From Candidatus Latescibacterota bacterium (GTDB lineage Bacteria; JAAXHH01), in contig JAJEHX010000028.1 of assembly GCA_022823465.1 (NCBI GenBank), positions 1-64,000 of the forward strand: a DNA stretch of 64,000 nucleotides. The letters run 5' to 3'. The first letter of the stretch is position 1; each line of letters begins with the position of its first letter. This document shows positions 14,706-41,585 of this stretch, in pieces. Both the position numbers and the translations under genes were made by a program. The notes beneath the pieces were generated by a model that was given only the letters and a program-made list of their open reading frames with translations, made no database searches and was not told where the DNA came from.

Positions 14706-15803
14706 GTGTCCATGTCCGAACAAATCCAGGTCGCTCCGTCGCCGGAACGCTACGCGCCGTCTCCCGCGCCGCCCGTGTTGCAGCCCGATGCCGGCTATCT
14801 CGGGTATGACCGGTCGTTGTTGCGGCCCATGTCGCTGGGCCAGAAGCTCCGAGCCGTGATGAAGTACGTCTGGGTGCGGTTGAAGGGCGGGCCGATGTCG
14901 GTGAACATGGAAGTGACCTACCTGTGCAACGCCACCTGCGATTTCTGTGATTACTGGAAGGTGAAGCGTTCGGGCAAGCTGGGCGACTACGACTACGTGG
15001 AAGCGCTCAGGAAGCTGAATCCCCTGACGGTCACGCTGACCGGCGGGGAACCCATGATCAACAAGCAACTGCCCGAGGCGGTCAGGCGCATCAAGGATAG
15101 TTTGGGATTCGTCTATATCGGCATGGTCACCCACGGATCCCTGCTGACTGTGGAAAAGGCCATGGCCCTGTGGGACGCCGGGCTGGGCCATATATCCATC
15201 TCATTGAACTACATCGGCCGCGAACACGACGAGGAACGGGGCATCGAGGGGCTGTACGAGCATATCACCACACTTGTTCCCCAGCTGACGGCCCGGGGCG
15301 TCAACGTGATCTTCAACACGGTGATCATGCGCGAGAACCTGGACCACGTCGTACCCATTGCGCACCTGGCGCGGTCCATGGGCGCGAAGGTTTCCTACAG
15401 CTGTTACAGCGACTACAAGAATGGGAACGAAACTCACCTGGTGGATCCCGGGCATGAAGACCAGCTGGAATCCGTGATCGAGGACCTGATCTACCAGAAG
15501 TCCCGGTTGGGCAACATTGTCAACTCCGCCTGGTACCTGCGCCGCATCCCCGACTATTTCCGGGATGCCCTCCCGCAATCCTGCACGGCGGCGGGTAAGT
15601 GGCTGGTGCAATTGACGCCCGACGGTGACGTAAAGCCCTGCGCGGAACTGCCCGTACTGTCCGGGTACGCCGACTTCAAGCGGGTTTCGAAGAAGATCGA
15701 CTGCAACCGATGCTGGTACAGCTGCCGGGGAGAGACCGAGTCTTCGTTGAAGCCTGGAAGGTTGCTGGAAGGTCTGGTAAGGGCCATACGCAGCAGCGCT
15801 TAG
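14706..15803 (+). CDS. Radical SAM protein with C-terminal Cys cluster (SPASM-like)
   Basis: VTYLCNATCDFCDYWK (CxxxCxxC), TGGEPMINKQLPEAV; C-terminus CTAAGKWLVQLTPDGDVKPCAELPV...CNRCWYSC. Confidence 0.85.
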   Translation: MSMSEQIQVAPSPERYAPSPAPPVLQPDAGYLGYDRSLLRPMSLGQKLRAVMKYVWVRLKGGPMSVNMEVTYLCNATCDFCDYWKVKRSGKLGDYDYVEALRKLNPLTVTLTGGEPMINKQLPEAVRRIKDSLGFVYIGMVTHGSLLTVEKAMALWDAGLGHISISLNYIGREHDEERGIEGLYEHITTLVPQLTARGVNVIFNTVIMRENLDHVVPIAHLARSMGAKVSYSCYSDYKNGNETHLVDPGHEDQLESVIEDLIYQKSRLGNIVNSAWYLRRIPDYFRDALPQSCTAAGKWLVQLTPDGDVKPCAELPVLSGYADFKRVSKKIDCNRCWYSCRGETESSLKPGRLLEGLVRAIRSSA

Positions 15804-18800
15804 TCGACCGGCACCAGTTCCCGGGCGAGAATCCGGCCGGTGTGGGAAAGGGAGCCGGCGATTTCCTCCGGCGTACCCGCCGCGACGACGTGACCGCCCT
15901 GGTCGCCGCCTTCGGGACCGAGATCCACGATCCAGTCGGCTGTCTTGATGATGTCGAGGTTGTGCTCGATCACCAGCACCGTGTTCCCCTTGTCCACCAG
16001 CCTGTTGAGGACGTCCAGCAGCTTGCGGATGTCGTCGAAGTGCAATCCCGTGGTCGGCTCGTCCAGCAGGTAGATGGTCTTGCCGGTACCGGGCCGGGAA
16101 AGTTCCTTCGCCAGCTTGACGCGTTGCGCCTCTCCCCCCGACAGCGTAATGGCCGACTGGCCGAGCTTGATGTAGTCGAGTCCCACGTCGTACAGCGTCT
16201 GTAGCGTGCGCCGGATGCGGGGCACGTTCTCGAAGTGCTCGAGGGCCTCGGCCACGGTCATCTCCAGCGTGTCGGCGATGGTTTTGCCCTTGTAGGTCAC
16301 CTCCAGCGTTTCCTTCATGTAGCGCTTCCCGTCGCAGACCTCGCAGGTCATCCACACGTCCGCCAGAAAATGCATCTCGATCTTGCGCACGCCGAGTCCC
16401 TGGCAGGCCTCGCAGCGGCCCGCGGGCACGTTGAAGCTGAACCGGCGGGGTTCGTAGCCTCGCATCCGGGCCTCCACGGTCTGGGAGAAGAGCGAGCGGA
16501 TCGGCGCGAAGAGCCCGACGTAGGTGGAAGGGTCCGACCGGGGGGAATGGCCGATGGGCGTCTGGTCGATGTTGATGACCTTGTCCACGAACCGCAGCCC
16601 CTTGATTTCGTCGTGAGGTCCGGGATTTACCTGGGCGCGGTGCAGCGTGGAGGCCAGCACGGGATAGAGGATATCATTCACGAGGGAACTCTTCCCCGAT
16701 CCGGACACCCCCGTGACGCAGATGAAGAGGCCGAGGGGCAGCGTCACGTCGATGTTCTTCAGGTTGTTCTGGCGGGCTCCCATGATACGCAGCTTGTTCC
16801 GTCCCGGTTTGCGGCGGTCCCGAGGCACTTCGATGCGAAGCTGGTTGCCGAGGTATCTTCCGGTCAGCGAAGCCGGGTGTTCCCTGAGCGCGTCCGGCGA
16901 CCCCTCGCCCACGATCCGGCCTCCGTATGTGCCGGCTCCCGGACCGAAGTCCACCAGGTTGTCGGCGTGCTCGAGCGTATCGCGGTCGTGTTCGACCATG
17001 ATGAGGGTATTGCCGAGATCGCGCAGATTTTCCAGGGCCTCGATCAGCCTGAGGTTGTCCCGCGGATGGAGCCCGATCGTGGGTTCGTCGAGCACGTAGA
17101 GCACGCCGGTCAGACCCGATCCGATCTGGCTGGCCAATCGGATCCGCTGCGCCTCGCCACCCGACAGCGTGGGCGCGCGGCGGTCGAGGGTCAGGTATTC
17201 CAGTCCCACGTCCAGGAGAAAGCGCATGCGGTTGCGGATCTCCATCATCACCTCGCCCACGACATCCCGCTGGGATTCGGACAGTTCCAGTCCGTCAATG
17301 AAGGCCGTGGCGCGATTGATGGACATGGCGCAGAGCCCGGCAATGGAAACGCCGTCGACCAGTACGGACAGGCTTTCGGGCCGGAGCCGGCCGCCGTCGC
17401 AGGCCGAACAGGGCGTCGGTTGCAGCAGGCGGGCAAGTTCGGGGAACCGGTTCGCATACCGGGCGACCAGCTCGACGGTCGGGAATATGCCCCGGAACTG
17501 GAAGGACAGGCCGGGTACCCGGTGGTCGTCGATCCACTGATCGTTTCCGTAGAGGAACACCTGGAGCTGCTCCGGCGACAGTTCGTCGACCGGCGTGTTC
17601 AGCGTAAACCCCTTTGCGGATGCGACCTGTTCCAGCAGGCCGAGCATGGACCGTTCGCCCACTGCGCCTTCACCCCAGATCGCCTGCGCGGCTTCACGAA
17701 TGGTTTTCGAACGATCGGGAATCAACAGGTCCAGGTCGATGCCGGGCTGGGTTCCGAGCCCCTCGCATTCGGGGCACATGCCCGACCGGTGGTTGAAGGA
17801 GAAACTCTGGAGGGACAGTTCTTCATAGCTGACGCCGCAGGCCGGGCAGGAATAGTACCGGCTGAACCGGATGTCGCGGGCGCCGCCGGCATCCGGTTCC
17901 TGCACCTCGGCGATCATCAGTCCCCCCGACAGCTCCAGGGCCGTCTCCACGGAATCTGCCAGGCGCTGCCGCACGTCCCCACGCATGACGATCCGGTCCA
18001 CCACCACGCACAGTTCGTGGCGCCGGCGCCGGTCGATCTGTATATCCTCTTCGAGGCGGTGCAGGACGCCGTCGATGCGCACCCGGATGAACCCGTTGCG
18101 GCGGGCCCGGTCCAGGAGTGCGTCGTACCCCTCGGCGCCATCGGGCTCCAGCGGCGCGTGCAGCGTAGCGCGGGTCTGCTCCGGCAGTTTCATGATCCGG
18201 TCCACGATCTGGCTGGGCGTCTGCGCGCCGATGGGAACGCGGCAGGCCGGGCAGTGGGGCACGCCGACCAGGGCGTAGAGCGCGCGCAGGTACTCGTAGA
18301 TCTCCGTTATGGTGCCCACCGTGGAGCGGGGGTTCCGGCCCGGAGCCTTCTGTTCGATGGATATGGCCGGGGACAGGCCGACGATGTGGTCCACCTTCGG
18401 CTTCTGCATCTGCTGGAGGAACTGGCGCGCATAGGCGGAAAGGGATTCCACGTACCGCCGCTGCCCTTCCGCGTAGACCGTGTCGAGGGCCAGGGAGGTC
18501 TTGCCGGAGCCGGATACGCCGGTGAACACGGTCATCCGGTCCCGGGGGATGGCCACGGAGAGATCGTTCAGGTTGTGTTCCCGGGCGCCGCGCACGGTGA
18601 TCTCCCGGATGTGTCCGTCTTCCGAAGCCGCCTTTTCCGGCGGCTTTGGAGGCGCCTGAGGCGTCCGGGGGCTCAGCGCCTTCCCCAGGATTTGCCCCGT
18701 GGACGATCCGGCGACGCCCGCTACCGTCTCCGGCGCGCCCTCCGCGATGACGCGCCCGCCCGCTTCTCCGCCCTCCGGCCCCAGGTCGATGATCCAGTCG

Positions 18801-21496
18801 GCCGTCTTGATCACGTCGATGTTGTGCTCGATGACGACGACGGTGTTGCCCTTGTCCACGAAGGCGTTCAGCACGGCGAGCAGATGGGTGATGTCTTCGA
18901 AGTGCAGGCCGGTCGTGGGTTCGTCCAGCACGTACAGGGTCCGTCCCGTGCTGCGCTTGCACAGTTCCCGTCCCAGCTTGATGCGCTGCGCCTCGCCGCC
19001 CGACAGCGTGGGCGCGGGCTGGCCGAGCTTGATGTACCCCATGCCCACGTCGTAGAGGGTCCTCAGCACCCGGGCGATGGACGGGACGTGTTCGAAGAGT
19101 TCCAGCGCTTCCTGCACGTCCAGGTCGAGGACGTCCGCGATGGAATGCCCCTTGTACTTCACCTCCAGGGTCTCCCGGTCGAACCGCTTGCCTTCGCATA
19201 CGGAGCAGGAGACCCACATGTCCGCCAGGAAGTCCATTTCCACCCGCGTGGCGCCATTGCCCTCGCAGGCTTCGCACCGGCCGCCGCGCACGTTGAAGCT
19301 GAAACGGCCCGGTTTGTAGCCGCGTATCCTGGCCTCGGGCGTCTCGGCGAAGAGGGACCGGATCGCGTCGAAGACCTTCGTGTAGGTCGCGGGATTGGAT
19401 CTCGGCGTGCGGCCGATGGGCGCCTGGTCGATGTTGATGACCTTGTCCAGGTGTCCTGCGCCCTTGAGGCCGTCATACGCGCCCGGGTCCGTGCCTGCCT
19501 TGTTCAGCGACCGGGCCAGGGCCGCGTACAGGATGTCGTTGATCAGGGAGCTCTTGCCGGAACCGGACACGCCGGTGACGCAGGTGAAGAGACCGACCGG
19601 TATGCGGACGTCCAGGTTCTTGAGGTTGTTCTGCCTGGCGCCAAGGATGGTCAGCCACTTATCGTTCACGCCGCGGCGGGAGGCCGGGACGGGGATCATC
19701 TTCTTCCCGCTCAGATACTGCCCGGTCAACGAACCGCTGGTCGCCGCCACGACGCCCGGGCTGCCTTCGGCCACGATCTCCCCGCCGTTGATGCCGGCGC
19801 CGGGACCGAAATCCACCATGTGGTCGGACGCCCACATGGTCTCTTCATCGTGCTCCACGATGATGACGGTATTGCCCTGGTCCCGCAACTGGCCCAGCGT
19901 ATCCAGCAGCCGCCGGTTGTCTCGCGGATGCAGGCCGATACTCGGCTCGTCGAGCACGTACATGACCCCGACGAGCCCACGGCCGATCTGGCTCGCGAGA
20001 CGTATACGCTGCGCCTCCCCGCCGGAGAGCGTCGGCGCCGTGCGTTCCAGTGTCAGGTAGTCGAGCCCCACGTTGAGCAGGAAGTCGAGCCGGGCGACGA
20101 TTTCCTTGAGCGCCTCGTCGCCGATCTGACGTTCGGCGTCCGTCAGCGTCAGTTTCCGGAAGAATGCGCGGACATCCGTTATCGACATCCGGCACAATGC
20201 GGCGATGGAGAGACCGCCGAGGGTGACGGAAAGCGCCTCCGGCTTGAGGCGCTCGCCTTGACAGTGGTCGCACTCCCCGATGGCCATGTATCTTTCGATC
20301 TCTGCCTTGTGCCGCGGGGACTTGAGTGTATGGTACCGTTTTTCAAGGTCGGTCACGACCCCGTTGAACCGGTCCTTGTGCGTCCATTCGCCGCCCTTCC
20401 CGTTCCGGAAGGTAAAATGGATGCGCTTGTAGCCCAGGCCGTACAGCACGACGCGACGCGCTTCCTCAGTCAGTTGCTGCCAGGGGGTGTCCAGGCTGAA
20501 CCCCGCGTGATGGGCGACTCCCTCGAAAAAGTGCCGTTTCCAGAGGTTGGTGATCGTGCCGAGGGGTTCGATAGCGCCTTCGTTTATGGATTTCGCCGGA
20601 TCGGGTATGATGAGCCGCGGCTCGATCCGCATCATGGTGCCCAGCCCGTGGCAGTTCGGACACATGCCCTGGGGATTGTTGAATGAGAACATCTGCGGAG
20701 TGGGCTCCTCGTAACTCAGATCGCACTTGTTGCAGGCGTACCGCGTGCTGAAGAGCTGGTTGGAAGTCCGGCCGTCCTCTTCCACCTGGATCATCATGGT
20801 GCCCTGACCCAGATGCAGTGCGCCTTCCACGGCTTCGACCAGCCGGGTGCGTATTTCGTCCCGCATGATTAGCCGGTCCGTCACCACTTCGATCGTATGG
20901 CGCATGTTGCGGTCGAGATCGGGATCTTCGGAGAGGTTGACGATCTCGCCGTTCACCCTGGCGCGCAGGTAGCCCTGCCGGCGCAGGTCCTCGAAGAGGT
21001 CCCGGTACTCCCCGCGCCGTCCCTGGACGACCGGCGCCAGGACGTGCAGCCTGGTTCCCGGGGGCAGCGCCAGGATGCGCGCGACGATCTGTTCGAGGGT
21101 CTGCGCTCCGATCTCGTCTCCGCATTTCATACAGTGGGGCGTTCCCACCCGGGCGTAGAGCACGCGCAGGAAGTCGTAGATCTCGGTAATCGTTCCGACC
21201 GTGGACCTCGGGTTCAACCCCGAAGCCTTCTGTTCGATGGAAATAGCCGGTGCCAGCCCGGTGATCCGGTCTACGTCGGGTTTCTGCATCTGGCCGAGGA
21301 ACTGCCTCGCGTAGGCGGAGAGGGATTCGACGTAGCGCCGCTGGCCCTCCGCGTAGAGGGTATCGAAGGCCAGCGAGGATTTGCCGGAACCGGATACCCC
21401 GGTGAAGCAGATCAACGCGTCTTTCGGCAGGTCGAGGCTGACGTTCTTCAGGTTGTGAACGCGGGCCCCTTTGATCTGGATGGTCGTTCTGGCCAT
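15800..21496 (-). CDS. uvrA: Tandem-fused double-length excinuclease ABC subunit A (UvrA-UvrA)
   Basis: Two consecutive complete UvrA units: MARTTIQIKGARVHNLKNVSLDL... and HIREITVRGAREHNLNDLSVAIP...; four GVSGSGKS/T Walker A motifs, four LSGGEAQR signatures, and Zn-finger Cys pairs in both halves. Confidence 0.95.
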   Translation of the reverse strand: MARTTIQIKGARVHNLKNVSLDLPKDALICFTGVSGSGKSSLAFDTLYAEGQRRYVESLSAYARQFLGQMQKPDVDRITGLAPAISIEQKASGLNPRSTVGTITEIYDFLRVLYARVGTPHCMKCGDEIGAQTLEQIVARILALPPGTRLHVLAPVVQGRRGEYRDLFEDLRRQGYLRARVNGEIVNLSEDPDLDRNMRHTIEVVTDRLIMRDEIRTRLVEAVEGALHLGQGTMMIQVEEDGRTSNQLFSTRYACNKCDLSYEEPTPQMFSFNNPQGMCPNCHGLGTMMRIEPRLIIPDPAKSINEGAIEPLGTITNLWKRHFFEGVAHHAGFSLDTPWQQLTEEARRVVLYGLGYKRIHFTFRNGKGGEWTHKDRFNGVVTDLEKRYHTLKSPRHKAEIERYMAIGECDHCQGERLKPEALSVTLGGLSIAALCRMSITDVRAFFRKLTLTDAERQIGDEALKEIVARLDFLLNVGLDYLTLERTAPTLSGGEAQRIRLASQIGRGLVGVMYVLDEPSIGLHPRDNRRLLDTLGQLRDQGNTVIIVEHDEETMWASDHMVDFGPGAGINGGEIVAEGSPGVVAATSGSLTGQYLSGKKMIPVPASRRGVNDKWLTILGARQNNLKNLDVRIPVGLFTCVTGVSGSGKSSLINDILYAALARSLNKAGTDPGAYDGLKGAGHLDKVINIDQAPIGRTPRSNPATYTKVFDAIRSLFAETPEARIRGYKPGRFSFNVRGGRCEACEGNGATRVEMDFLADMWVSCSVCEGKRFDRETLEVKYKGHSIADVLDLDVQEALELFEHVPSIARVLRTLYDVGMGYIKLGQPAPTLSGGEAQRIKLGRELCKRSTGRTLYVLDEPTTGLHFEDITHLLAVLNAFVDKGNTVVVIEHNIDVIKTADWIIDLGPEGGEAGGRVIAEGAPETVAGVAGSSTGQILGKALSPRTPQAPPKPPEKAASEDGHIREITVRGAREHNLNDLSVAIPRDRMTVFTGVSGSGKTSLALDTVYAEGQRRYVESLSAYARQFLQQMQKPKVDHIVGLSPAISIEQKAPGRNPRSTVGTITEIYEYLRALYALVGVPHCPACRVPIGAQTPSQIVDRIMKLPEQTRATLHAPLEPDGAEGYDALLDRARRNGFIRVRIDGVLHRLEEDIQIDRRRRHELCVVVDRIVMRGDVRQRLADSVETALELSGGLMIAEVQEPDAGGARDIRFSRYYSCPACGVSYEELSLQSFSFNHRSGMCPECEGLGTQPGIDLDLLIPDRSKTIREAAQAIWGEGAVGERSMLGLLEQVASAKGFTLNTPVDELSPEQLQVFLYGNDQWIDDHRVPGLSFQFRGIFPTVELVARYANRFPELARLLQPTPCSACDGGRLRPESLSVLVDGVSIAGLCAMSINRATAFIDGLELSESQRDVVGEVMMEIRNRMRFLLDVGLEYLTLDRRAPTLSGGEAQRIRLASQIGSGLTGVLYVLDEPTIGLHPRDNLRLIEALENLRDLGNTLIMVEHDRDTLEHADNLVDFGPGAGTYGGRIVGEGSPDALREHPASLTGRYLGNQLRIEVPRDRRKPGRNKLRIMGARQNNLKNIDVTLPLGLFICVTGVSGSGKSSLVNDILYPVLASTLHRAQVNPGPHDEIKGLRFVDKVINIDQTPIGHSPRSDPSTYVGLFAPIRSLFSQTVEARMRGYEPRRFSFNVPAGRCEACQGLGVRKIEMHFLADVWMTCEVCDGKRYMKETLEVTYKGKTIADTLEMTVAEALEHFENVPRIRRTLQTLYDVGLDYIKLGQSAITLSGGEAQRVKLAKELSRPGTGKTIYLLDEPTTGLHFDDIRKLLDVLNRLVDKGNTVLVIEHNLDIIKTADWIVDLGPEGGDQGGHVVAAGTPEEIAGSLSHTGRILARELVPVD

Positions 21497-33857: not shown

Positions 33858-36800
33858 TCAGAAACTCATGCGGGCCAGTAGCCCGATTCGGTGGTCGGAT
33901 GCGCCGCCGCGCCGGTCGATCCGCATGCCGGAAAGTTCCATGGATGCACCGCCGAAGTCGGCACCGGACGGGGCGAGTCTGGCGCCCAGCCGCATCTGCC
34001 GCCGGTCGTCCCCGAGGAGATACATTTCGCCGAAGGGCGTCATCAACACGCCCATGGACGGGTACGCGAGCCCGTAACCGACCTCCGCCCTCAGCGCGCG
34101 GGCGTTGTTTCGGCCGTGAAGGGACGAGCCCGCAAGCGGCCTGTCACGCCACATCATGCCCGAGTCTCCCGTACCTGCGCCAACGCGCGGCGCGACGGAC
34201 ATGGAAAGGCCTGTCCCGCCCGCGCCGGGACTCAGGGACGCGACCAGGGAAAACCCGTTTTCGCTGTATCCTTCGGCGGTGTGGACCGCCAGGAACCTGC
34301 CCTGTGCGTTTATGCCCACCCGGCCGCCTGACAGGCGCAGCCCTCCCGAAACCTCGAGGCCCTGGCCCGTCTGGCCGGTGCCGCCGTCGTAACGCCCGGC
34401 GAGTTGCGCGTAGGGGGTCAGGGTGGTTCCACCGGAGAGCTTCGTCGAACGCGACCCCTCAAGGCCGATCCGGACCCGCTGCGCGTTCGCGTTTATGTCC
34501 CCGAGCGAAGCCGATTCACTGTCGGAAGTCGACAGCCGGGCCAGGCCCGCGTCACCCACCACGTCCAGCCCCGTGCCGCCCGTCCCCGCCAGCCGGGTGC
34601 GTATGCCCACCAAGGCCATGCGCATGGAAAGGTCGCTCGTGGCATCCTCTGATTCGACCTCGCCGGTGCCGAGTCCCACGATCGACCACGCTTCAGAAAG
34701 ACCGGTGCTGCATAGCCAGCGTACGTACGGCAGCACGCTGGTAAGACGCGATTCCAGGGTGCCGCTCGCGACGGTTACGTCGTAATCGGACTGGCCTGTC
34801 GCGTGCGAAAGGGCGATACCCGCCAGCCAGTTGCGCTGCACGGCCACGTCAAATCCGAGATACGCCGCCTTAAGACTTCCGTCGTAACTGGCGTCCACAT
34901 CGGGTTCGCCCTGGAAGTTCCGCAGGTCACCCGCGCCCCACACGGTCCATTGGACTCCTCCGGTCGCCATCTGGTCCTCCGGCGCGTAGACGAAGGAACT
35001 CGTCCGCAGCAGGTAATCTCCACCAACGCCGCGCGGGTGACCGGCGTCGTTCAACAGCGCCAGGTGTTTCTCCTGAGCCTGGCGTCCGTGGCCCGTAAGG
35101 CTGGCCAACGCCGACACGCTCGACGCGATGCCGTCTATTCTCCGGCCTCCCACGGTGATTCTCTGTCCACCGGTTCCCGCGGCGAAGCGGCCACCGATGG
35201 TTGTCGAGACGCTGGACAGCATATTACGGCCCATGGCGCCCAGGATGTTCTCGTAGGCCATCCGCTCCGCCGCGATGGCCGTGACCGTCACGCCCACCTC
35301 GACAGTTGCCGTTCCCGCCGCGTTCCTTGCGGCGACCGTCACCGTGGCGGAGCCCTTGCGTACACCCGTTACGGTCAGCGTGGCGCCCGTCATGGCGGCT
35401 TCCGCGACGCCGTTGTCGGACGTGGCGGCCGAATAGCTCAGGTCGGTGCCGGTAAAGACGGACTCCAGGTTCGCGGTCCTTGAATCACCCGCCTCCAGCG
35501 TTACCGACGGCGGGCTGCCTACGGTCGACGGGGCGTCGTAGGAGTCGGTAACCGTCACCGTGGCGGTATCGAGTTCCTGGCTGTCGAAACTCGCCGACAC
35601 GATGATCGTTTCTCCCCCGGACTCGTACACGTCGTCGTTGACGACCGTGAGGGTAAGCTGCGTCGAGCCTTCCGTACGCTCCCCGGGTATCGTAATGCTC
35701 AGGTCGCCGCTGACGCTGTAATCGTCACCGGTGGCCGTACCGGAGAGCGCAAGCGGCAATACCGTCGAGATCGGTATGGCCATGCTGGTCTGCGCGGCCG
35801 TCACGGTCACGATCTGCGCTCCGCCTTCCTCCGACACGGTCGCCGGGTTCACGGAAAGCGTAATTCCAGGGGTGTATCCGGTGAAGTCGAAATAGAACCC
35901 GGAGCCGATGACGAGTTCCATCCCATCGACGACGACAGTTTCCGCGTAACTCACCTTGGGCGATCCCAGTTCTTCGTCTCCGACCACGGCCGGATTGTCG
36001 AAATAGTACTCGACGTAACCGCCCCCGGCTTGCGCGGCCTGTATGAGTTCACGAACGTAATAGACCCCGTTCAGGTCCTGGGCGTCGAAAATGTTCACGT
36101 CCTCGCGGGACGGGGTGGCGCCGTGAAAGAGCAGCAGGCCGTCGGTTTGCAGGAAGAAGATGTAGATTTCACCCAGCCGCCAGATACCGTCCTCGATCCG
36201 GAAGGCCTCGACGACATCCTCATGGTTCCCGAATCCCACCTCGTCGATGGCTCCTTTGTAGGCAGAAGTCGCGGCCTGGACGAAAGTCTTCAGGGTTGCC
36301 CGGTCCATCACGTCCGCGGCGGTTACGTCACCGACGGGCAGCGGAGGAACGAGCGCGTCCTGCACCGAAATCGTTGCGGTTCCGATTTCCTGGCCTTCAT
36401 AATCGGCCGTGACCACGATGGTCTCGCCGGCCTCGTCCATTCCATCGTACGCAACGTCGAAAGTGAGAGTTCGAGACGCCGACACGGCATCCCTGGGGAT
36501 GATGATCTCGAGCGTACCTTCCGCGGTGTAGTCATCGCTCGTGGCCGTGCCCCCCAAAGTCAGGCCTATGATGGTCGCCGCCGTAATCGGTTCCTCGGTC
36601 AGCGTGGCCGTCACCGTCACCTCCTGGCCGCCGCGGCCTTCGATCACGGTTTCCGGCTCCACCGTCAGCGTGATCTCCGGCACGTCGTCCACGGGCCTCC
36701 GATAGAAGCCGGCGCCGGTTACCAGGGTCGCATTGGGAAAGAGCGGGCTGTCGGGAGGAAGCGTATAGGCCTCGGCATAACTCACTTTGGGCGAACCGAG

Positions 36801-39800
36801 TTCTTCGTCTCCCTCTACCGAGGGATCGTCGTAGTGATACTCGATGAAATCGCCCCCGCGCAGCCCCGCCTTGATGATCTCTTCGACGAACCGGACGCCG
36901 TTCAGGTCCTCGAGGTGAATCTGGACGGCCCCTTCCTGCGTTACATCGGCGCCGTGGAAAAGCACGTATCCCTGTGAAGTCATGGTAAACATGTAGACGG
37001 CGCCTTCTCTGAACGGTCCGCCTTCTACTCTGGTTATATCCCTAACCAGCGCCAGTTTGCCCAAATCGTCACCGATCAGCGCAATCGCTTCCTCATACCA
37101 GCGTATCGCGCCTTGCACGAAGGCCTTCAGCGTTTCCCTGTCCACCACGTCCCGCGCCCACACTTCAGGCGGACCGGGCAGTTCCAGTTCATCTCCGCGC
37201 GGAATGAACTGGTTGAAACCGCTGACCACTACCCAGTCCCGGCCGGTGAGGTTCGAAGTGACATTGACCGCATAGGCGACCCGGGCCGGATCGTCGTCCG
37301 GCACGTCGGGATCATCCCAGGTGTAATCGACAAAGCCTCCACCGGCCGCCGCCGTCTCGAGGATCTTCTGAATGACTTTCTCGCCATTGTCGTCCTCCAG
37401 GTCGCTCGCGTCTATCCCGTCCCGGGTCGGATCGTCGGCGTGCAGGAACACGCTGCCGTCCGGCTGAAGAAAGATGAAGTACATCTCCCCGGGTACTCTC
37501 CAGATCCCTTCGGAGCGGACGTCACTCAGAAGCCTGGCGGCTTTATCCACGGTGTCTACGGTAGCCAGGTAATCAACGAAACCTCCTACAAAGGATCGAA
37601 GCGTCTCACGGTCTACAACTTCATCGGCGGTGGTGAAATCGGCTGCGTCGATCACCGTGATCGTGGCTGTGGACAGGTCGTTCCCTTCATAGTCGGCCTT
37701 GACCTCGATGGTCTCGACGTCTTCATCGACTCCGTCATCGATCACGTTGAAGGTAAGCGTCGTGGAAGCCGACGTGGCGTCCCCCGGAATGATGATTTCG
37801 AGGGTTCCTTCCGAGGTGTAGTCATCGCCTGTCGCCGTACCCGAGAGCGTCAGGTCGATGATCGTCGCCGCCGGCACCGGGTCGTCGGTCAGCGTGGCTG
37901 TGACGACCACTTCCTGGGCGTCAAGGCCTTCGGCCAGGGATTCGCGATCCACCTCCAGCGTGATCTCCGGTATGTCGTCCACGGGTCTCCGGTAGAACCC
38001 GGCGCCGATGACGAAGGTCTGCCCGGGAAAGAAATCCGGGTATTCTATCGTCTCGGCGTAACTCACCTTGGGCGAGCCGAGTTCTTCATCGCCCTCGACC
38101 GACGGATCGTCATAGTGGTACTCGACGAATCCACCGCCCGCAACCGCGACGTTAATGAGGTCTTCGACAAAGCGCTTTCCGTTCAGGTCTTCGAGATCGA
38201 TCCGGATGGCGCCTTCCTGCGTCGCGTCCGCCCCGTGGAAGAACACGAATCCTTCCGTGGTCAGGATGAACAGGTAGATGGCGCCTTCCCTGAACGGTCC
38301 GCCTTCTTCCCGCCACGCGCTCGTCAGTACGCCTGCCTCCACGCCGTATGTCTCGAAGGCGTCAAAGGACCACTTGATCGATCCCTGCACGAAGGCCTTC
38401 AGCGTTTCCTTGTCCACCACGTCCTGGGCCTGTACCTCGGGCGGGTTTGGCAGCGTGGACTCCGCATCCGGGTCGGGTATGTCCATGTTGAATCCGCCCA
38501 CCAGGACGAATTCACCCACGCCGAATCCGGATGCGTACCGGGTGGCGTAGGCCAGGCGGTTGGGGTCGTCACCGGGATCATTCGGATCATCCCAGGTGAA
38601 TTCGACGAAACCCCCTCCGGAACCGGCCGCCGCGAGGATCTTCTGAACGACCTTCTCGCCGCTGTCGTCTTCCAGTTCGCTGATGTCGATACCGTCGCGG
38701 GTGGGATTGTCGCCGTGGAAGAACATCTCGCCGGAAACGGTGAGGACCGAAAGATACAGGTCCCCATGTTTCCAGTCGCCTGGGGTTCGGAAGGAGATCG
38801 CCAGGGCCGGGAAGTCGTTGGCGTCGGTTACCCGCTCCAGGGAGTCCGCCACCATCTCTACAAAACCCTTCAACGTCTCCCGGTCCACCACCTCGCCGGC
38901 AGGAACAGGCCTGAGGTCGTTTACCGCGATTTCAGCCGTCGCGAGTTCCTCCATGTCGTAACCGGCGGACACGACGATCGTCTCGCCGCCGGCTTCCTCC
39001 ACCCCGTCGTTCACAACGGTGAATGTCAGTTCCGTCGTACCCATTGAACCTTCCGGGGGTATCAGGATGTGCATATCGCCGGTCACCGAATAGTCATCGC
39101 CGGTGGCGGTTCCGGACAGGTCCAGCGACAGCCTGGTCGTTACCGGTATCAGATCACCGGTCTGGGTGGCGGTCACCGTCACGGTCTGGGGGCCTCCGCC
39201 TTCCGAGAGCACGGAGGGATCCACCGCCAGCATGGTCTCCCGGTCGTAGTCGGCAGGATCGAAGTATATCCCGGCGCCAAAGATCACCCGCCGGCCGCCG
39301 CGGGATTCGACAGACTGCACAAAGCTCAGCTTCGGCGTACCGGTTACCTCGTCTCCCGGAACCGACGGATCGTCATACTGGTATTCGACAAAGCCTCCCC
39401 CCGCCGTGGCCACCCTGATGAATTCCTGGACGAACCTGACGCCGTTGATGTCCTCCAGATGGGACTGGTTCCGCGCTTCCTGCGTACGGTCGGCGCCATG
39501 GAAGATCACGTAACCCAGGTCGTTCAAGATAAACAGATATATGGATCCGTGCCGCCAGTGGCCGTCCTCGATCCGGAAGACGTTCAGAATGTCGGCATAG
39601 CGATCGGTCCCGTGCTCCTGCAATGCGCCTATATAGCCTCTCATGGCCCCGATGACGAACTGCTGGAGCGTTTCGCGGTCCATGACCTCCGCCGCCGTCA
39701 CCTCGGGTTCGGGAATGAGCGAGGCATCGTATACGGGCGGTTCGATCTGGGACACGTCCATGTAGAAGCCGCCAACAAGGATGACCTGGTTGCCGTAGTT

Positions 39801-41585
39801 TTTGCCGAAGAAACTGGTGGCATAGGCTACCTTGGCGGGATCGTCGTCGTCGTTCGGATCGTCCCAGGTGTAATCGACGTGGCCGCCACCCAGTCTGCCC
39901 GTCTCGATCAGATCCCGCACCACGGTCTTGCCCGTGTCGTCTTCGAGTTCGAACAGGCTCTTGCCGCTGGCCGAAATGTCGCCTGCGTGGAACAACACGG
40001 TTCCGTCCAGGAGCATGAGCATGAGAAACGTGTTGCCGTGTTTCCAGTCTCCTTCTTCCCGGGTACTGTTGAGGAACGGCGCAAGCGCGCCGCCTGACTC
40101 GTATATACCTTCGATGTGGGTTTTCGCGCCTTCCACGAAAGTCGCGAGCGTCTCCCGGTCCACCACCTCGCCGGCCGTGGGCGTTGTTACATCCTTCACC
40201 GCGATCTCCGCCGTCGCGAGTTCCTCCATGTTGTAACCGGCGGTAACGACGATCGTCTCGCCGTCCGGTTCCTCCACGCCGTCATCCTCGACGGTAAAAG
40301 TCAATTCCGTCGTACCCTCTGATCCTCCGGGGGGTATGAGGATGTACATATCGCCGGTCACCGCATAGTCATCGTCGGTTGCGGTACCGGACAGGGTAAG
40401 CGACAGCCTGGTCGTTACCGGCAGTGGATCTCCTGTCTGGGTGGCGGTCACCGTCACGGTCTGGGGCCCGCCGCCTTCGGTGAGCACGGAGGGATCCACC
40501 GCAAGCTTGGTCTCCCGATCGTAGTCGGCAGGGTCGAAGTATATCCCGGCGCCAAAGATCACCCGCCGTCCGCTTCGGGCTTCGAAAGACTGGACATAGC
40601 TCAGCTTCGGCGTACCGGTTACCTCGTCTCCCGGAACCGACGGATCGTCATACTGGTATTCGACAAAGCCTCCCCCGGCTTTGGCCACCCTGATGAATTC
40701 CTGGACGAACCTGACGCCGTTGATGTCCTCCAGGTGGGACTGGTTCCGCGCTTCCTGCGTACGGTCGGCGCCATGGAAGATCACGTATCCCTGGTCATTG
40801 AGGATAAACAGGTAAATCGACCCGTGCCGCCAGTGGCCGTCCTCGATCCGGAAGACGTTCAATATTTCGTTGTATCGATCGGTCCCGTGCTCCTGCAATG
40901 CGCCTATGTAGCCTCTCATGGCCCCGATGACGAACTGCTGAAGCGTTTCGCGGTCCATGACCTCCGCCGCCGTCACCTCGGGCTCAGGAATGAGCGAGGC
41001 ATCGTATACGGGCGGTTCGATCTGGGACACGTCCTGGTAGTATCCGCCGACCAGGATGACCTGGTTGCCGTAGTTATTACCGAAGAAACTTGTGGCGTAG
41101 GCTACCTTGGCGGGATCGTCTTCGTCGTCGTTCGGATCGTCCCAGGTGTAATCGACATGGCCGCCGCCCAGTCTGCCCGTCTCGATCAGATCCCGCACCA
41201 CGGTCTTGCCCGTGTCGTCTTCGAGTTCGAACAGGCTCTTGCCGCTGGCGGTAACGTCGCCCGCGTGGAACAACACGGTTCCGTCCAGGAGCATGAGCAT
41301 GAGAAAGGTGTTGCCGTGTTTCCAGTCTCCCTCGTCCCGGGTGCTGTTGAGGAACGGCGCAAGCGCCTCCCCGGCCTCGTATATCCCTTCGATATGGGTT
41401 TTCGCGCCTTCCACGAAGTTCTTGAGCGTTTCACGGTCCACGACCTCGCTGGCCTTGGGCGGCCCGGACGGCATATCCTGGGCAAGTACCGGCTTCGCTC
41501 CGTAAAGCGATCCGATGAGTCCTGTCATTACCCCTAAAACCAGCATAGATATCATCGATCTACCTGAGATAGAGGAAATCATCAT
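33858..41585 (-). CDS. Giant autotransporter-like surface protein: tandem Cache-like modules plus Calx-beta-like repeats, Ig-like segment, C-terminal autotransporter beta-barrel
   Basis: N-terminal signal-like sequence; nine (E/D)V(V/M)D(R/K)xTLxxFV...FHGAD...GGG(F/H)V(E/D)Y...DDP...G(A/S)G(I/F)Y modules; five SGTATGDDYxxxGxLxIxIPxxxxxxxTTLTFxVxDDG Calx-beta units; last ~470 aa barrel ending HRIGLLARMSF. Confidence 0.85.
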   Translation of the reverse strand: MMISSISGRSMISMLVLGVMTGLIGSLYGAKPVLAQDMPSGPPKASEVVDRETLKNFVEGAKTHIEGIYEAGEALAPFLNSTRDEGDWKHGNTFLMLMLLDGTVLFHAGDVTASGKSLFELEDDTGKTVVRDLIETGRLGGGHVDYTWDDPNDDEDDPAKVAYATSFFGNNYGNQVILVGGYYQDVSQIEPPVYDASLIPEPEVTAAEVMDRETLQQFVIGAMRGYIGALQEHGTDRYNEILNVFRIEDGHWRHGSIYLFILNDQGYVIFHGADRTQEARNQSHLEDINGVRFVQEFIRVAKAGGGFVEYQYDDPSVPGDEVTGTPKLSYVQSFEARSGRRVIFGAGIYFDPADYDRETKLAVDPSVLTEGGGPQTVTVTATQTGDPLPVTTRLSLTLSGTATDDDYAVTGDMYILIPPGGSEGTTELTFTVEDDGVEEPDGETIVVTAGYNMEELATAEIAVKDVTTPTAGEVVDRETLATFVEGAKTHIEGIYESGGALAPFLNSTREEGDWKHGNTFLMLMLLDGTVLFHAGDISASGKSLFELEDDTGKTVVRDLIETGRLGGGHVDYTWDDPNDDDDPAKVAYATSFFGKNYGNQVILVGGFYMDVSQIEPPVYDASLIPEPEVTAAEVMDRETLQQFVIGAMRGYIGALQEHGTDRYADILNVFRIEDGHWRHGSIYLFILNDLGYVIFHGADRTQEARNQSHLEDINGVRFVQEFIRVATAGGGFVEYQYDDPSVPGDEVTGTPKLSFVQSVESRGGRRVIFGAGIYFDPADYDRETMLAVDPSVLSEGGGPQTVTVTATQTGDLIPVTTRLSLDLSGTATGDDYSVTGDMHILIPPEGSMGTTELTFTVVNDGVEEAGGETIVVSAGYDMEELATAEIAVNDLRPVPAGEVVDRETLKGFVEMVADSLERVTDANDFPALAISFRTPGDWKHGDLYLSVLTVSGEMFFHGDNPTRDGIDISELEDDSGEKVVQKILAAAGSGGGFVEFTWDDPNDPGDDPNRLAYATRYASGFGVGEFVLVGGFNMDIPDPDAESTLPNPPEVQAQDVVDKETLKAFVQGSIKWSFDAFETYGVEAGVLTSAWREEGGPFREGAIYLFILTTEGFVFFHGADATQEGAIRIDLEDLNGKRFVEDLINVAVAGGGFVEYHYDDPSVEGDEELGSPKVSYAETIEYPDFFPGQTFVIGAGFYRRPVDDIPEITLEVDRESLAEGLDAQEVVVTATLTDDPVPAATIIDLTLSGTATGDDYTSEGTLEIIIPGDATSASTTLTFNVIDDGVDEDVETIEVKADYEGNDLSTATITVIDAADFTTADEVVDRETLRSFVGGFVDYLATVDTVDKAARLLSDVRSEGIWRVPGEMYFIFLQPDGSVFLHADDPTRDGIDASDLEDDNGEKVIQKILETAAAGGGFVDYTWDDPDVPDDDPARVAYAVNVTSNLTGRDWVVVSGFNQFIPRGDELELPGPPEVWARDVVDRETLKAFVQGAIRWYEEAIALIGDDLGKLALVRDITRVEGGPFREGAVYMFTMTSQGYVLFHGADVTQEGAVQIHLEDLNGVRFVEEIIKAGLRGGDFIEYHYDDPSVEGDEELGSPKVSYAEAYTLPPDSPLFPNATLVTGAGFYRRPVDDVPEITLTVEPETVIEGRGGQEVTVTATLTEEPITAATIIGLTLGGTATSDDYTAEGTLEIIIPRDAVSASRTLTFDVAYDGMDEAGETIVVTADYEGQEIGTATISVQDALVPPLPVGDVTAADVMDRATLKTFVQAATSAYKGAIDEVGFGNHEDVVEAFRIEDGIWRLGEIYIFFLQTDGLLLFHGATPSREDVNIFDAQDLNGVYYVRELIQAAQAGGGYVEYYFDNPAVVGDEELGSPKVSYAETVVVDGMELVIGSGFYFDFTGYTPGITLSVNPATVSEEGGAQIVTVTAAQTSMAIPISTVLPLALSGTATGDDYSVSGDLSITIPGERTEGSTQLTLTVVNDDVYESGGETIIVSASFDSQELDTATVTVTDSYDAPSTVGSPPSVTLEAGDSRTANLESVFTGTDLSYSAATSDNGVAEAAMTGATLTVTGVRKGSATVTVAARNAAGTATVEVGVTVTAIAAERMAYENILGAMGRNMLSSVSTTIGGRFAAGTGGQRITVGGRRIDGIASSVSALASLTGHGRQAQEKHLALLNDAGHPRGVGGDYLLRTSSFVYAPEDQMATGGVQWTVWGAGDLRNFQGEPDVDASYDGSLKAAYLGFDVAVQRNWLAGIALSHATGQSDYDVTVASGTLESRLTSVLPYVRWLCSTGLSEAWSIVGLGTGEVESEDATSDLSMRMALVGIRTRLAGTGGTGLDVVGDAGLARLSTSDSESASLGDINANAQRVRIGLEGSRSTKLSGGTTLTPYAQLAGRYDGGTGQTGQGLEVSGGLRLSGGRVGINAQGRFLAVHTAEGYSENGFSLVASLSPGAGGTGLSMSVAPRVGAGTGDSGMMWRDRPLAGSSLHGRNNARALRAEVGYGLAYPSMGVLMTPFGEMYLLGDDRRQMRLGARLAPSGADFGGASMELSGMRIDRRGGASDHRIGLLARMSF
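38895..41447 (-). repeat. Two-copy ~1.28-kb intragenic tandem duplication (40170-41447 and 38895-40169)
   Basis: Protein copies starting at aa 47 and aa 473 are nearly identical over >400 aa (e.g. AKTHIEGIYE.G.ALAPFLNSTR.EGDWKHGNTFLMLMLLDGTVLFHAGD); nucleotide blocks such as ccgaagaaact.gtggc.taggctaccttggcgggatcg recur ~1275 nt apart. Confidence 0.9.

Follow-up and report, generated by a model that had tools for sequence, protein, structure and literature searches.

Among the extracellular sensor modules of bacteria, Cache domains are the most frequent, and they are regarded as signal inputs. The described systems closest to the protein reported here are the sCache_2 (PF17200) domains of chemoreceptors (V. 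parahaemolyticus, 4EXO/2QHK; PscD-SD, 5G4Y/Z; Adeh_3718, 4K08; TlpB, 3UB6), which belong to the same fold and family. In contrast to these, the present protein carries nine tandem copies on a secreted passenger and is devoid of any HAMP or signalling domain. The carboxylate in PscD-SD is held by Tyr90, His103, Tyr143 and Lys156, three of which were considered by the authors to be critical for carboxylate-binding single Cache domains (PMC5062169).

With the type Va autotransporters (BrkA, EstA, Hbp, EspP, AIDA-I, NalP) the protein shares a putative signal peptide, the passenger, a helix and a C-terminal barrel whose last residue is aromatic. Their passengers are β-helices or proteases/esterases, whereas the passenger described here consists of Cache and Calx-beta modules, and the barrel behind it, at approximately 365 aa, is longer and only just satisfies the Pfam model. 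A combination of the autotransporter domain with repeated adhesion-type modules is likewise found in a sponge symbiont, the cyanobacterium “Ca. Synechococcus feldmannii” (PMC6506613). However, its modules are of the FN3 and cadherin types, not Cache, and are without such a ligand pocket. An enrichment of Cache domains has also been noted in sponge Thaumarchaeota, where they were suggested as possible chemotaxis receptors (PMC7848895); the passage of that report dealing with them gives no architecture, secretion route or pocket analysis, and homology to the present family is not established.

The gene is located in a stretch of 64,000 nt, hereafter the window, of a Candidatus Latescibacterota bacterium (JAAXHH01; GCA_022823465.1, contig JAJEHX010000028.1, positions 1-64,000), whose lineage is one of sponge-associated microbes. 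Its open reading frame of 2575 aa was confirmed at exactly 33858-41585 on the minus strand, which is the strand of all features listed in the following; it starts with ATG and ends in ...LLARMSF. In the encoded protein a putative signal peptide is followed by four units of Cache A, Cache B and Calx-beta and by a further Cache B with its Calx-beta; an Ig-like domain, a helix and a β-barrel complete the chain. The tandem units are corroborated by DNA repeats of approximately 1275 bp. We regard this computed architecture as practically certain.

The putative Sec-type signal peptide (approximately aa 1-35, ..SMLVLGVMTGLIGSLYGAKPVLA|QD; 41481-41585) was recognised by eye in the translation without a predictor. 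The first residues of the nine Cache modules are 48, 209, 474, 634, 899, 1056, 1323, 1480 and 1759, and the modules were characterised by mapping their pocket residues, given here in the order of Tyr90, His103, Tyr143 and Lys156 of PscD-SD. Unit 1 comprises Cache module 1 (type A; 40974-41456; F,H,Y,K), Cache module 2 (type B; 40485-40973; Y,H,Y,K, as in all B modules) and Calx-beta module 1 (40182-40484). Unit 2 contains Cache modules 3 (type A; 39699-40178; F,H,Y,K) and 4 (type B; 39210-39698), both also covered by the DNA comparison, and Calx-beta module 2 (38907-39209). In unit 3, Cache modules 5 (type A; 38433-38900; Y,H,F,R) and 6 (type B; 37941-38432) and Calx-beta module 3 (37635-37940) are additionally represented in an AlphaFold model, and unit 4 consists of Cache modules 7 (type A; 37161-37631; Y,H,Y,R) and 8 (type B; 36651-37160) and Calx-beta module 4 (36345-36650). 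The last unit is formed by Cache module 9 (type B; 35841-36323), which also has a sequence match to 2qhk/4exo, and Calx-beta module 5 (35532-35840). The Calx-beta signature G[TS]AT.DDY occurs at five sites, residues 400 (GTATDDDY), 825, 1249, 1679 and 1949. Towards the C-terminus follow the Ig-like (Big_2-like) domain (35283-35531), the helix before the barrel, which is a candidate pore helix placed by the structure model at approximately aa 2104-2135 (35181-35276), and the type Va autotransporter β-barrel (33861-34952) with Phe as its last residue.

The first-pass annotation, made from the DNA alone, had proposed nine Cache-like modules, five Calx-beta-like units, an Ig-like segment and a C-terminal β-barrel ending in Phe. 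Among the Pfam models it named, sCache_2 was called in nine stretches with 353.9 bits (cut-off 25; E-value 1.1e-106), dCache_2 likewise in nine stretches, and Autotransporter (PF03797) scored 26.3 bits, just above the cut-off of 26, and 29.2-29.7 bits in homologues of the genus. Calx-beta (PF03160), on the other hand, was absent from the results up to an E-value of 1, and Big_2 matched below its cut-off. Two AlphaFold models were computed from the window sequence aligned with homologues, one of unit 3 (Cache-Cache-Calx, 428 aa; pLDDT 88.7) and one of the C-terminal 566 aa (mean pLDDT 68). In a Foldseek search the best PDB matches of the former were the Cache chemoreceptor domains 2qhk, 4exo, TlpB, 4k08 and 5g4y (4exo: TM-score normalised by target 0.76, E-value 2.4e-6), and it also matched Calx CBD1 (3e9t/3ead; TM-score by target approximately 0.59, E-value 2e-4), as expected for its last third. 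All structural claims of the annotation, the five Calx-beta units included, were upheld. The C-terminal model contains a confident Ig domain with a β-sandwich and a large β-barrel, and its top 14 PDB matches were all type Va autotransporters, with BrkA first (E-value 7.7e-9); EstA, Hbp, EspP, AIDA-I and NalP were also matched. Neither a non-Cache fold of the repeats nor a C-terminus without a barrel, the two outcomes that would have refuted the annotation, was met in these HMM and structure tests. The classical type Va barrel has 12 strands. DSSP assigned approximately 17 strand segments to the present one, a count that is unreliable because part of the model lies below a pLDDT of 50.

The protein would presumably be exported via Sec and inserted into the outer membrane as a type Va autotransporter, displaying at the surface a rod of nine single-Cache modules with Calx-beta spacers. 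Omp85 is the family of the barrel-assembly machine (BAM), and four matches to this family were detected in the genome of the window.

The length of the array may have been altered by duplication and recombination. Between units 1 and 2 the DNA identity is 92% for Cache modules 1 and 3, 93% for modules 2 and 4 and 84% for Calx-beta. The codons that differ do so synonymously in 61 cases and non-synonymously in 42, which indicates a fairly recent duplication. The remaining pairs of same-type modules are only 54-72% identical. Unit 2, which nearly duplicates unit 1, was omitted from a tree of the Cache pairs, in which units 3/4 fell into a lineage different from that of unit 1; the array is therefore a mosaic of two pair lineages, a point not contained in the first-pass annotation. 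The same locus, with a decarboxylase gene on one side and a PhyH gene on the other, encodes autotransporters with 3, 5 or more, or 9 Cache modules in sister species. In two of the loci (L024, L027) an autotransporter with modules of the units-3/4 type is found on the opposite side of the PhyH gene. The genus also possesses a second family of giant Cache autotransporters (ORFs of 1403-1886 aa) with the same Calx/Ig/barrel end. Cache modules of this kind were detected in all 12 genomes of the genus that were examined and in none of four genomes of the same phylum outside the genus.

Several further observations were made at these loci. At the position of the window gene, L027 (7899-8789, minus strand) harbours a decayed paralogue of the unit-1 type, in which the signal peptide and Cache A are followed by a partial Cache B, the latter being fused directly to the last barrel strand as the product of an internal deletion. 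The homologue in L028/L082 (G007) is split into three ORFs by stops and frameshifts and represents either a pseudogene or an assembly error. Elsewhere in the window (15800-21496, minus strand) an ORF of 1898 aa encodes two complete UvrA copies head to tail; the NCBIfam UvrA model matched it twice, and a double-length UvrA model (PRK00635) scored below its cut-off.

The window modules retain the four residues with which PscD-SD contacts the carboxylate. These residues were mapped to four module columns through a profile alignment to 5g4y, and conservation was computed over 163 columns for 103 modules with mutual identities below 80%. The columns of Tyr90, His103, Tyr143 and Lys156 rank 13, 20, 18 and 21, respectively, and all four residues are exact in 66 of the 103 modules, or in 93 if conservative swaps (Phe, Trp, Arg) are counted. 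The hydrophobic wall residues, which relate to ligand size and specificity, are variable (ranks 44 to 84). In the window protein the B modules keep four of four residues and the A modules two or three, with one or two swaps each: Phe at Tyr90 (modules 1 and 3), Arg at Lys156 (modules 5 and 7) and Phe at Tyr143 (module 5). Since these Phe and Arg swaps affect pocket positions, some A modules may not bind. Inferred from the alignment, the pattern looks like that expected of working sites with tuned specificity, which is not proof of binding, and the conservation of the pocket residues could partly be structural. Beside the pocket, at profile columns 107-115, all modules carry an acidic [WYF]DDP....GDE motif in place of the WPKP of chemoreceptor Cache domains such as PscD and 4K08, and a metal site is possible there.

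By descent the modules would derive from carboxylate-binding sensor domains that kept the carboxylate-holding residues and lost the link to a signalling output. Outside the cell they probably bind small carboxylates, or glycans that bear carboxylates, in a multivalent manner and serve attachment, recognition or capture in the environment of the host or holobiont. We lean slightly towards such a carboxylate-binding surface array repurposed from sensors; here surface display, binding, ligand and role are inferred, whereas the architecture, folds, pocket conservation, copy-number variation and absence of methyl-accepting chemotaxis proteins (MCPs) and flagellin from the carriers are computed. Among the functional readings, the earlier suggestion of a surface ligand-capture array or of an adhesin made from sensor folds is still the leading one, without experiment, and is strengthened by the conserved carboxylate pocket and by carriers lacking MCPs and flagellin. 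Against the array speak the lack of any binding or localisation experiment and the weakness of the barrel model in places, and an envelope-crossing sensor working with a partner is not excluded.

A repetitive rod with Calx-beta and Ig modules, and with a copy number that varies at one locus, is also typical of adhesins. The Cache folds might hence be no more than stiff structural modules or protein binders whose small-molecule pocket is an unused relic, and the altered pocket residues of the A modules would agree with this. A relic pocket should decay, however, and its columns are among the most conserved of 103 divergent modules, with all five B modules of the window protein keeping the four carboxylate residues exactly; a pure adhesin or spacer is therefore possible but unlikely.

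Alternatively, the array could concentrate small carboxylates at the surface for uptake as nutrients or cofactors. Pyruvate, acetate or propionate are the ligands of the nearest solved Cache domains, an NCBIfam search gave sub-threshold matches to the MctS and CtpM sensor models, and freely soluble and lipoprotein versions exist among the relatives. Yet the affinities reported for Cache domains are only in the range of tens to hundreds of micromolar (PMC5062169), a molecule with nine sites can hold little ligand and none of the annotated neighbours in the window was recognised as an uptake gene, so that this role appears quite unlikely.

The lack of a cytoplasmic signalling domain inferred in the first-pass annotation was upheld by Pfam, which detected no MCPsignal, HAMP, HisKA, kinase or GGDEF domain in the 2575-aa protein. 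MCPsignal is absent from the genome of the window and from the 18 other carrier genomes tested, which span several phyla; of 99 background genomes from outside the phylum, 52 possess it. Flagellin was found in none of the 19 carriers tested. A role as chemoreceptor was rejected, as neither the own genome nor those of the other carriers encode an MCP. Nine of ten background Cache proteins bear signalling or receptor-type domains (MCP, histidine kinase, GGDEF, PAS/DUF294), the remaining one being a short ORF with Cache alone, and the window-type barrel occurs at none of 12 background loci. That the displayed array signals to a cytoplasmic pathway via an unknown partner is scarcely tenable: Cache domains are the commonest extracellular sensors and the searches did not cover other sensor partners in the genome, but the protein has no HAMP, kinase, GGDEF or MCP domain, the carriers have no MCPs and the relatives show several different anchoring modes.

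A scan of 84,980 species genomes with the module alignment retrieved 267 relatives, the best 79 loci of which were analysed. Approximately 31 of these 79 have a barrel homologous to that of the window protein. They include two-Cache proteins of approximately 850 aa, mostly labelled Gemmatimonadota and one Rhodothermaceae, in addition to those of Latescibacterota. Within the same best 79, the tandem A-B pair of Cache modules occurs in varied contexts, namely with the autotransporter barrel, with a T9SS-type tail, with a lipobox or without any such addition. Judged by their C-terminal endings, nine loci possess a FlgD-Ig / T9SS type A sorting tail, confirmed in both of the two tested (TIGR04183, 36-37 bits against 23). 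Lipoprotein relatives were recognised by their lipobox, one of them in the genome of the window itself (L001, 635-1693), and others are plainly secreted. Since tandem soluble Cache proteins are also present in background genomes (L029), the distinctive traits are the display and the multiplicity. No description of the Cache-autotransporter combination was found in the literature, where both terms appeared together only with regard to Desulfovibrio adhesins.

A match of 67-79% protein identity limited to the gene links Truepera (Deinococcota), Caldilineaceae (Chloroflexota) and Synechococcus/Prochlorococcaceae (Cyanobacteriota). As the flanks are unrelated between the three phyla, sequence comparison indicates a horizontal transfer of the Cache gene, subject to the phylum labels of the records, which were not checked per contig. 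An apparent transfer of the autotransporter between Gammaproteobacteria and Gemmatimonadetes was rejected as evidence due to conflicting record labels: L049/L060/L065/L074 and L056/L059/L067 are approximately 86-96% identical over most of the compared stretches, and this near-identity reveals a label conflict in public MAGs. A scan of IMG/VR found no relative, and viral carriage was dismissed.

Records of 24 of the best 79 loci are tied or probably tied to marine sponges by papers, and many carriers are documented or likely marine-sponge symbionts. Bins MPNB and MPNL originate from Aplysina aerophoba (PMC5649159), 277c is a Petrosia ficiformis specimen (PMC6506613), from which the other 277c-named MAGs are inferred to stem as well, and “Ca. 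Synechococcus spongiarum” is among the sponge-tied records. Inferred from their names, the RHO/COS/IRC/APA records fit the seven demosponges of PMC8163846. The remaining 55 loci are untraced (including the jk18x/p16x, SB06xx, OX/OY/CATOST, Plut and PNGco records, of which Plut and PNGco may be coral), and a sponge origin of every related locus was discarded as unverifiable for these.

It is conceivable, albeit very unlikely in our estimate, that the family is a class of symbiosis surface proteins across sponge-associated phyla, spread partly horizontally, in which sensors became multivalent lectin-like arrays for carboxylates of host glycans. Sponge glyconectins carry polyvalent pyruvylated galactose (PMC7828597). 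By analogy with the nearest solved Cache relative, which holds pyruvate, such glycans are a tempting candidate ligand for which there are no binding data.

Beyond the first-pass annotation, the protein is thus placed in a large multi-phylum family of symbionts, with Cache as exported cargo without output, a conserved carboxylate pocket and genomes without chemotaxis receptors or flagellin. Cache matches in symbiont genomes do not warrant a default annotation as chemoreceptors. The family offers a testable molecule for the long-open question of how the varied extracellular symbionts of sponges recognise their shared host or each other, or hold on to them.

Among the relatives, the Cache-autotransporter gene of Palauibacter rhopaloidicola (L091, 10465-16753) is split between Cache and barrel by an island of approximately 6 kb, whose ORFs include, by reading, tyrosine-integrase-like, relaxase-like and restriction-endonuclease-like proteins; the homologue in L046 breaks off at this GAGFYRD site as well. 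A separate lineage of approximately 1.7 Mb (G227 and G356; L128-L131) encodes many tandem Cache proteins. Several of them end in DDGGCA, a transmembrane segment and a basic tail, resembling a C-terminal sorting signal; the JDVT type guessed for these ends received no NCBIfam confirmation and was dropped. In L131 the ORF adjoining the Cache gene contains two SRCR domains.
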